Shown: positions 46,024-48,127 of the stretch, in pieces
Layout: each line of letters starts with the position of its first letter
How positions within the stretch are numbered: position 1 is the first letter of the stretch
Assembly: GCF_041435335.1 (NCBI RefSeq)
Contig: NZ_CP108430.1
Coordinates: 6,919,001-6,983,000, forward strand
Direction: 5' to 3'
Length of the DNA stretch: 64,000 nucleotides
Origin: Streptomyces sp. NBC_01283
GTDB lineage: Bacteria; Actinomycetota; Actinomycetes; Streptomycetales; Streptomycetaceae
Program-made: the position numbers and the translations under genes
The notes under the pieces: generated by a model
Databases searched by the model: none
What the model was told of the DNA's origin: nothing
The model's input: the letters and a program-made list of their open reading frames with translations, nothing else

Positions 46024-46470
46024 TCAGCACTCGTACTTCGTCGTGTGCTTGAAGGACGATGTCGCGCCGTCGAAGCCGTACGTCCCCCGGTACGCCGGAG
46101 GGTTCTGGTACTCGCCGACGATCGTGATCGTGTTGGCGCAGGAGCCCTGTCCCGTGCGCTTGGCGTCCAGGCGGATCGTGTCGCCCACGAAGCCGCCCGT
46201 GATGTCCCAGGGGGCGCCGCAGATGCCGGAGGTGATCTGGCCGCCGGTCACCACGTGCGGGTGGGTGTTGGGGTTGTACTTCACCTCGATGGCGAACGTG
46301 ATCGCGCCGTTGTGCAGCTCCAGCTTGCAGGTGGTGGAGACCGCCTCGGCGGACACGTCCTGGGGCGCGGCGAATGCCTCGTCGCGCGTCTTGACCTCGG
46401 CGCCCTGCGGGTTGTGGAAGCGGTGCTCCGCGCGGGCCTGGCCCTTCTGCTTGCGTGACTGAGTGGTCAT
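46024..46470 (-). CDS. Beta-rich unknown protein, last gene of the protease cluster
   Basis: 148 aa without a signal peptide. The first ~35 residues are basic (SRKQKGQARAEHRFHN). The rest looks like a beta sandwich with regularly placed cysteines (TTCKLEL, SGICGAP, GSCANTI and the terminal Cys). Four cysteines in a protein lacking a secretion signal is unusual. It lies 27 nt downstream of the protease gene and is presumably cotranscribed. I do not recognise it; substrate, inhibitor or effector of the protease are all open. Confidence 0.7.
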   Translation of the reverse strand: MTTQSRKQKGQARAEHRFHNPQGAEVKTRDEAFAAPQDVSAEAVSTTCKLELHNGAITFAIEVKYNPNTHPHVVTGGQITSGICGAPWDITGGFVGDTIRLDAKRTGQGSCANTITIVGEYQNPPAYRGTYGFDGATSSFKHTTKYEC

Positions 46471-46497
46471 GAAGCCCTCCTCTCGGGGTGAGGCCGG

Positions 46498-47655
46498 TCA
46501 GGCCAGCTGCTCGGAGACCTCGACCCGCAGCAGCGCGCGGACGTTCTCGATGTGGTTGAGCACCGTCACGGTGGACGATCCGGCGAACAGCAGCCCCAGC
46601 GCGACGTTGTCGAGCGAGGTCACCAGGGACCCCGAGTCGCCGCCCGCCGAGATGTTCGTCGTCAGGATCTGGTCCTTGAAGCGGGCCGTGCCCGCCGTGC
46701 CGTAGTTGACGTCGATGGTGGCGTCGACCGCGATGATCCGGCCGAAGGAGATGTTGGTCGTACGGCCGGTCTTCTTCACCTGGTCGCCGACCGCGACGTT
46801 CGCCTTGCGGCGCCAGGCGCGCGGCGCACCACTGAAGTACGTCTCACGGGTCGCGTCCTGGAAGTCGACGGTGCCGAGCGCCGCGTCGACGACGTTGTTG
46901 TGACGCTCCAGCGGGATCTGCGGGGCGAACTGGATCGTGATGAAGCGTTCCAGCGTCGCGATGCGGTCGGCCGGGTCCTGGCCGCCGTCGAAGACGCCCG
47001 GCTGCACGATCGCGCTGCCGAGCTGCGCGCGGTTGGAGTCGGCCAGCACGTGGTTGTTGGAGAGGACGTAGAACTTCGCCGGTACGCCGAGGCCGGGGCC
47101 CGGCGGGTCGACGGCGGCGCCGGGCAGGAAGTCGTAGACCACGCTGCCGAGCGTGCCGGCCGTCACGCGTACGTTGCCGACCGAGGCGCCGGAGGGGCAC
47201 GGGCGCATACGGCGCTTGAGGAGCTGCGGCTCGAACGCGCCGAGCCCGCCGCGCTCTTGGAGCTGGGGCTGCGACAGGCCCGCGAGCTGCTCGCTCACGC
47301 TGCCGTCGGGGCCGTACGCCGCCGATGAGCGGTCATCGGCGCGGGAGGACTGGCGCTGCTGCCGCTGCGCGGCGACATGGCCGACCGCGACGATGTCGGT
47401 GGGGGTGCCGTCGTCCATCTGGCGCGGGACGACGTCCCGCTCCGGGAGCATGGACTCCGGGACCTTCTGGGTGACGAACACGATGACGGCCGGTTCGCCG
47501 GTGGGCTGTCCCTCGGTCCACTTCACGCCGTGGCCGAAGCCGACGACGTTGGCAAGCGGCGACTGGGGCCGCAGGAAGTCGGATGTCGCCTGCTGGCGGG
47601 AGCTGTCACTGAGCTGACCGCCGGTGGGTCCTCGCATCAATTCGGGCTGGCTCAC
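46498..47655 (-). CDS. Trypsin-like serine protease with an N-terminal prodomain-like region
   Basis: 385 aa, no signal peptide. The chymotrypsin-fold triad is His202 (LSNNHVLAD), Asp257 (NNVVDAALG) and Ser341 (ISAGGDSGSLV). Residues ~33-97 (LANVVGFGHG...VIVFVTQKVP...DVVP...VAVGHVAAQ) are homologous to the whole 78-aa product of the preceding gene; a charged linker (~98-150) joins them to the protease. GTG 47655 is chosen because GAGGTGG lies just upstream; ATG 47679 has no such site. This is not a typical secreted Streptomyces protease. Confidence 0.85.
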   Translation of the reverse strand: MSQPELMRGPTGGQLSDSSRQQATSDFLRPQSPLANVVGFGHGVKWTEGQPTGEPAVIVFVTQKVPESMLPERDVVPRQMDDGTPTDIVAVGHVAAQRQQRQSSRADDRSSAAYGPDGSVSEQLAGLSQPQLQERGGLGAFEPQLLKRRMRPCPSGASVGNVRVTAGTLGSVVYDFLPGAAVDPPGPGLGVPAKFYVLSNNHVLADSNRAQLGSAIVQPGVFDGGQDPADRIATLERFITIQFAPQIPLERHNNVVDAALGTVDFQDATRETYFSGAPRAWRRKANVAVGDQVKKTGRTTNISFGRIIAVDATIDVNYGTAGTARFKDQILTTNISAGGDSGSLVTSLDNVALGLLFAGSSTVTVLNHIENVRALLRVEVSEQLA

Positions 47656-47723
47656 GCCAGACCACCTCTTCGCCTTCATTGCGGGGTCGGAGTTCCGGTC
47701 CGTGCTCTGTCCTTGGCCTTGTC

Positions 47724-47960
47724 CTAGGCCTGGGTCTGGGCGTCGACGCCGCCGATCGCGAGTACGCGCACGGGGACGCCTTCGAGCACCGCCGGAACCA
47801 CGTCTTCGTCACGGAGCCGGTCACGGGGAACTTTGCGGGTGACGAAGACGACGATCACGTCCGTACCCGAGTTCTCGTCCCTCCCGGTGCCGACACCGGT
47901 GACATTGGCCAGCTTCATCAGCCGGTCCTCATGGAGACTGCGTGCCTGCTGTGCGTCCAC
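47724..47960 (-). CDS. Stand-alone small domain homologous to the N-terminal region of the adjacent protease
   Basis: 78 aa. Aligned by eye with protease residues 33-97 it shares LANV-G-G-G, VFVT-KVP, L-x3-DVVP and a closing VDAQ/VAAQ. This is the same fold encoded alone, 68 nt upstream of the protease gene and in the same direction. GTG 47960 is preceded by GGGGGAGG. It could be a trans-acting inhibitor or chaperone, or a sensor partner (inference). Confidence 0.8.
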   Translation of the reverse strand: MDAQQARSLHEDRLMKLANVTGVGTGRDENSGTDVIVVFVTRKVPRDRLRDEDVVPAVLEGVPVRVLAIGGVDAQTQA

Positions 47961-47998
47961 GCGGCTCGCCTCCCCCTACGGGTGATGCACGTAGGTGA

Positions 47999-48027
47999 TG
48001 TCTATTGCCGTGTGGAGGGCGGGTCAA
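47999..48027 (-). promoter_or_regulatory. Strong promoter of the prodomain-protease cluster
   Basis: On the minus strand: TTGACC (48027-48022), a 17-nt spacer, TAGACA (48004-47999). This is the best consensus HrdB-type promoter in the window, about 32 nt upstream in transcript terms of the GTG at 47960. Confidence 0.7.
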
Positions 48028-48127
48028 GGCGTTCTGCACGAAATCTTGGCTTTACGGGTGATCCGTTCCTGTTGACCTTGTCTACGAAGATTCTTCCCAC
48101 CAGTGGCCCACGTGCGTCGTTTCCCTT

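Follow-up and report, generated by a model that had tools for sequence, protein, structure and literature searches.

Why should the gene for a free copy of a protease's own N-terminal domain stand next to the gene of that protease? The question is raised by a three-gene locus in a stretch of 64,000 nucleotides (the window), part of a Streptomyces chromosome (genome G000) whose source is a soil bacterium. On the minus strand, in the order of transcription, the locus is comprised of a promoter pattern, a 78-residue open reading frame (ORF), the protease ORF and a third ORF of 148 residues (Table 1). The three ORFs lie where the initial annotation had placed them, and the third does begin 27 nt past the protease stop. 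Rfam gave no match over the window at the gathering thresholds, and NCBIfam gave matches far below cut-off and nothing better.

Table 1. Coordinates of the features of the locus, in positions of the window.
Feature	Position	Strand	Basis
Small gene, free NAL1_N-like protein, 78 aa, GTG start	47724..47960	-	ORF; Pfam NAL1_N; hhalign; AF2
C-terminal tail of the small protein, residues 68-75 (AIGGVDAQ)	47736..47759	-	Residue counts, paired vs small-only copies
NAL1-family trypsin-fold serine protease, 385 aa from GTG 47655	46498..47655	-	
NAL1_N domain of the protease, residues 32-95	47371..47562	-	
Catalytic double barrel, residues 151-383, streptogrisin/alpha-lytic-like	46507..47205	-	
Catalytic His202 codon	47050..47052	-	65/65 rows of alignment A2
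Catalytic Asp257 codon	46885..46887	-	65/65 rows of alignment A2
Catalytic Ser341 codon (GGDSGS)	46633..46635	-	65/65 rows of alignment A2
Third gene, 148 aa	46024..46470	-	Constant companion of the protease in Streptomyces
Promoter pattern TTGACC-17-TAGACA	47999..48027	-	Conserved across related loci

The protease belongs to a known family, that of NARROW LEAF 1 (NAL1) of rice and its relatives (Pfam NAL1_N / Nal1_C). It differs from NAL1 in being bacterial, in being about 20% identical to it in structural alignment and in having a free NAL1_N-like gene alongside. Pfam NAL1_N (PF25608) matches the protease with 29.4 bits against a cut-off of 27, and with 32 bits in the genome search, a search whose control gave matches at E up to 1 in five of 14 well-known genomes, above the cut-off in one. 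The start of the protease fits better at the GTG at 47655 than at the ATG at 47679 of the ORF list (393 residues), because in 26 of 44 Streptomyces loci the sequence up to and including the first aligned residue (query residue 1, 2 or 4 of the 393-residue form) offers no start codon. Numbered from this GTG, the His202/Asp257/Ser341 triad on the trypsin fold is exactly as annotated. It is invariant in the 65 rows of alignment A2 (the window and 64 of the 96 distinct protease frames, near-copies and five long frames being omitted) and present in 94 of the 96 frames; Ser341 is nearly always kept, and alanine does not take its place in most homologues. Two long, distant NAL1_N proteins (L020 and L155) show a partial triad, HVS and HQV, in a pairwise alignment in which misalignment is possible. 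The N termini, read by eye from the sequence, carry no hydrophobic signal stretch, in accord with the annotated lack of a signal peptide, and the protease is, judging from its sequence, probably cytoplasmic.

The N-terminal domain of the protease had been taken for a prodomain. It looks instead like a permanent part of the enzyme, since the solved NAL1 chains contain the NAL1_N domain and permuted relatives carry it in the middle of the chain; these observations suggest that the built-in domain is not a discarded propeptide. The permuted relatives are natural circular permutants of the NAL1-type protease and occur in eight genomes of the class of genome G123 (loci L120, L121, L122, L125, L127, L129, L131 and L133, at about 830-2610 of each 3-kb locus). 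Their ORFs run in the order Ser half, NAL1_N, His half, which BLASTP confirms for L122 and L127: residues 15-140 of L122 align to 220-347 of the L069 protease and residues 153-337 to 14-208, and L127 shows the same swap of halves against the window protease. Long unrelated ORFs adjoin the permutants in the loci inspected. Among the open-access papers listed for the topic, none concerns permuted trypsin-fold proteases.

The initial annotation saw in the small protein a stand-alone copy of the N-terminal domain of the protease, and this is borne out. BLASTP aligns the two with 32 of 79 positions identical (E 1e-12), and in a profile-profile comparison with hhalign, for which 21 small-protein rows and 19 protease N-domain rows were chosen by hand, the homology is strong (probability 99.1, E 5.5e-19, 70 columns). 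Pfam NAL1_N itself matches the small protein with 24.1 bits (E 3e-5), below the curated cut-off of 27, and kinship to NAL1_N rests on the hhalign probability of 99.1% and on fold matches in the PDB. The AF2 single-chain model (pLDDT 85.4, pTM 0.71) has NAL1 chains as its best PDB matches, among the best 50 of each list.

The predicted fold of the small protein may also resemble a known protease pro region. Such a likeness is proposed for the fold alone, because homology by sequence to the alpha-lytic pro domain was rejected: hhalign gave a probability of 0.2% against 25 Streptomyces pro domains. Neither the small protein nor the protease has a Pfam match to PF02983 up to E 1. The alpha-lytic protease and the streptogrisins have a pro region (PF02983), whereas the window protease is without a visible signal stretch, a PF02983 match or profile homology to it. 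As a chain of its own, the pro region of alpha-lytic protease is still functional.

A recent duplication within Streptomyces is unlikely as the source of the free copy, because the small protein is closer to the Nostoc small proteins (46% identity) than to the N-domain of its own protease (41%). A tree of the domain (96 rows, 80 columns) does not resolve a single origin of the free copies; it needs 8 label changes, 4 of them forced by starred branches, so that free copies may have arisen more than once, most of all in the case of those downstream of the protease in L146, L148 and L149. Alignment A3 omits L140, L149, L151, L152, L155, L160 and L163 by script, and L001 (the window itself), L020, L116 and the N-domain of L138 by hand.

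The pair is found well outside Streptomyces. Among 52 loci compared (44 from Streptomyces, 2 from Nostoc, 6 others), the small gene adjoins the protease in 35 of the 44, in both Nostoc loci and in three of the others (L069, L070 and L071; in L069 and L071 it was detected by ORF and profile, not by tblastn). With the wider surveys included, the two genes are adjacent in three phyla, and either one may come first. With the profile of alignment A1, matches were obtained in 19 of 346 genomes of Actinomycetota, in 38 of 97 of the class of G123 (8 with the pair), in 7 of 145 of Nostocaceae and in 2 of 292 of Cyanobacteriota, where the family is therefore rare; limited candidates were scored per genome in these large surveys and absences are not certain. 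In Actinomycetota the small gene is upstream of the protease in five genomes (G000, G668, G751, G772 and G962) and downstream in three (G679, G712 and G846), the downstream copies having weak domain scores (E 8e-5 to 9e-8). The stop of the small gene possibly overlaps the protease start by 4 nt in L069 and L070 and by 8 nt in L138 and L139. Five of the seven Nostocaceae genomes carry the small gene and the protease and, upstream of the small gene, one more NAL1_N-like copy whose N terminus is a hydrophobic segment. Two Nostocaceae genomes are without a detected NAL1_N protease, G475 having a double-domain and G450 a single-domain version. The Nostocaceae loci with such additional forms are L067 (3576-3935), L068 (4614-4955), L092-L095, L096 and L097.

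Similar pairs in three phyla suggest that the small protein may control the protease. The mechanism that we favor, as one joint proposal and as somewhat more likely than not, is that the free NAL1_N-like domain acts in trans on the NAL1-family protease, the third protein being a dedicated partner. It starts from the homology, the predicted fold, the intact triad, the adjacency in both orders and the promoter pattern and, in one clade described below, from the joint absence of the protease and the third gene together with the loss of tail conservation. The free domain would bind the protease physically, docking on its barrel much as the built-in NAL1_N domain does. The decisive contact would be made by the C-terminal tail of the free domain, conserved as IGxVxAQ, which would reach the protease. 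Once docked, it would hold the protease inactive, help it to fold, or both, until a substrate or signal displaces it and the protease is released. For the third protein the simplest role as a dedicated partner of the protease would be that of a substrate or of a substrate adaptor.

NAL1 has been solved as multimers, several NAL1 entries having six chains, and the free and built-in domains are alike in fold and sequence. The small protein might therefore be a structural or regulatory subunit of a protease oligomer, which caps the assembly, swaps into it or breaks it and leaves the active site untouched. This arrangement we consider unlikely, and action in trans on the protease is retained as the preferred reading in what follows.

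A survey of 392 Streptomyces genomes, likewise with limited candidates scored per genome, gave 31 with a match, of which 19 have the adjacent pair, six the small gene alone and six the protease alone. The annotated neighborhood is conserved, but the small gene and the protease can each occur without the other beside it. In the inspected Streptomyces loci the place is fixed, between a PhoX gene (PF05787) and a 520-residue gene that matches nothing in Pfam; in the window and some of its relatives PhoX and the small gene are separated by a short-chain dehydrogenase gene. A tree of the two flanking proteins was built from 59 of 70 loci, after removal of near-identical ones and with many rows half filled. 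In it the six small-only loci fall into a single group (SH-aLRT 94), and protease presence needs one change and small-gene presence two. The small-only loci being one clade, the change counts as one event. In two of these genomes (G109 and G087) a genome-wide search gave three trypsin-like matches (E 1.6e-4 to 8.4e-4), none with the N-domain; in the other four (G1083, G973, G1221 and G1208) the absence of the protease refers to the surroundings of the small gene, and G973 has a weak NAL1_N match in an 851-residue frame elsewhere in the genome.

In this clade, where the third gene is missing along with the protease, the two parts of the small protein behave differently. The core (residues 2-67) is equally conserved, with a mean identity of 0.79 among small-only and 0.75 among paired copies, and dN/dS (Nei-Gojobori) is 0.235 (median of 15 pairs) in the former and 0.313 in the latter (351 pairs of 27 rows from genome contigs, L167 skipped). 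In the tail (residues 68-75) the mean identity is 0.29 in small-only copies versus 0.75 in 949 paired comparisons of like core identity. Among 46 distinct paired Streptomyces copies (duplicates dropped, as was L135, the same gene as L008) the tail residues are I69 in 43, G70 in 45, V72 in 42, A74 in 45 and Q75 in 39; in the six small-only species the counts are 0 for I69, 3 for G70, 0 for V72, 1 for A74 and 2 for Q75.

The promoter follows the same division. The annotated promoter is backed by comparison: when the pattern was scored as TTGAC-N16/20-TA(G/A)A(C/T) in 47 distinct upstream stretches of paired Streptomyces loci, it was found upstream of the small gene in 45. The misses are L040, which keeps AATAGAC and has GTGACC as its -35 element, and L167, whose stretch was mis-extracted at the locus edge. 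Of 15 protease-only loci, 13 have the pattern ahead of the protease gene, and the whole pattern is in none of the six small-only loci (300 nt scanned), two of which (L180 and L183) keep AATAGAC. This change within one clade singles out the tail and the promoter as the parts apparently tied to the protease, and shows that the remainder of the small protein has another task as well.

A second element, GAATCTTCG, lies upstream at about 48085-48095 of the window and is present in the 300 nt that precede the small gene in 27 of 64 paired loci, duplicates included. GAATCTTCGTA is found upstream of the small gene in two of the six small-only loci, L180 and L183.

The retention of the small gene at a dN/dS of about 0.24 in six species without the protease alongside, and the copies in Nostocaceae G450 and G475, where no NAL1_N protease was detected, would be accounted for if the small protein had a function of its own, unrelated to the protease, and the adjacency were the remnant of an old tandem duplication. 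Adjacency in three phyla, in both orders and with overlapping genes argues against this, as do a tail and a promoter pattern that differ just in the protease-less clade, and we regard an unrelated function as quite unlikely.

The strict tie in Streptomyces is that between the protease and the third gene; the small gene is a looser companion, yet one found in other phyla. Among 121 Streptomyces genomes the third gene accompanies the protease in all 11 that bear it, as judged by the N-domain match, and otherwise gave one weak match, in G044 (E 9.4e-4, a frame with one stop), which was not counted. It is present in 43 of the 44 Streptomyces loci, the 44th being cut by a contig end. The third protein was described as cysteine-rich, which is overstated: it has four Cys, none of them invariant in 14 aligned relatives, with C148 in 90% or more. 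It has no Pfam or PDB relative above chance, and is a candidate partner or substrate of the protease.

With a third gene so strictly tied to the protease, and a small gene that is its recurrent neighbor, the small protein could serve as an adaptor through which the protease receives its substrates, the third protein perhaps among them. The third gene, however, is beside the pair in none of eight loci outside Streptomyces and is present in one of 296 genomes of Actinomycetota, the window's own, with none found in the other 295. It is also kept in all six protease-only Streptomyces genomes, where there is no small gene. An adaptor role is thus very unlikely.

The initial annotation further considered a stress or defence module. 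An intracellular protease with a small partner gene fits an anti-phage system in outline only, and a PHROGs family of phage proteases, phrog_20754, is hit by the protease with E 1.9e-50 and by the small protein with E 3.1e-9, so phages do carry members of the family. Against this, PADLOC has no matching family up to E 1 for the three proteins, searches of 50,697 phage records and 72,556 plasmid records gave protease relatives in one and in 11 of them, respectively, all less than 60% identical, and in Streptomyces the genes occupy one fixed chromosomal place with the same PhoX and 520-residue flanks. The defence role is dropped as extremely improbable.

Among the nearest known arrangements are the stand-alone inhibitors that resemble subtilisin propeptides (I9), namely the yeast peptidase B inhibitor, POIA1 and SPI-1, and also TgMIC5 and SUB1-ProM. 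Like these, the small protein is short, comes from a gene of its own and resembles the propeptide of a protease. Separate propeptide-like regulators are known for subtilisins, and the SUB1-ProM gene adjoins subtilisin genes (passages of PMC6993865). The proteases in question are subtilisins, another family, and inhibition has been measured there, whereas for the small protein it is proposed. The fold comparison covers the best 50 matches per list, and families beyond them, such as I9, may match as well. SpeB and the staphopains are papain-fold cysteine proteases, unlike the trypsin-fold serine protease of the window. Spi is related to the SpeB propeptide. In the SpeB-Spi and staphopain-staphostatin systems a small inhibitor gene is co-transcribed with the protease gene and is thought to guard the cytoplasm (passages of PMC3462683). 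Separate propeptide-like regulators of proteases are thus already known. Among the open-access papers listed, none deals with NAL1-type proteases from bacteria or with a free NAL1_N-like protein, alone or beside such a protease, and none describes a free NAL1_N partner for plant NAL1.

Passages of PMC12915138 and PMC10970654 ascribe to NAL1 effects on leaves, plant height and yield in rice and on maize flowering, and contain nothing on the control of NAL1-type proteases. With a bacterial version whose N-domain has a separable copy, this could be answered in vitro with two small proteins. If the proposed control is true, a further fold is added to the stand-alone propeptide-like regulators, and the locus is a case where the absence of a protease points to the part of its regulator that touched it. 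More tentatively, and with some doubt, a dedicated free copy of the N-domain may regulate bacterial NAL1-type proteases in general, as an old switch that three phyla have preserved with the genes in either order; plant NAL1 would then be the version without a free partner; the tail would engage the protease, and after loss of the protease the free domain would be re-employed for another target under a changed promoter.

Other arrangements of the domains were seen in single loci. In L150 an ORF at 1078-1707, lipoprotein-like by eye, joins DUF3221 to a NAL1_N-like domain, and in L140, from one actinobacterium, a weak small-type frame (960-1310, E 5e-5) is located immediately upstream of the protease but on the other strand. 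Plasmid relatives of the protease barrel (hits H6 and H8-H11: NZ_CP109336.1, NZ_CP088013.1, NZ_CP149877.1, NZ_CP148094.1 and NZ_LR134447.1) are annotated as DNA/RNA non-specific endonuclease, which would fit protease-nuclease fusions.
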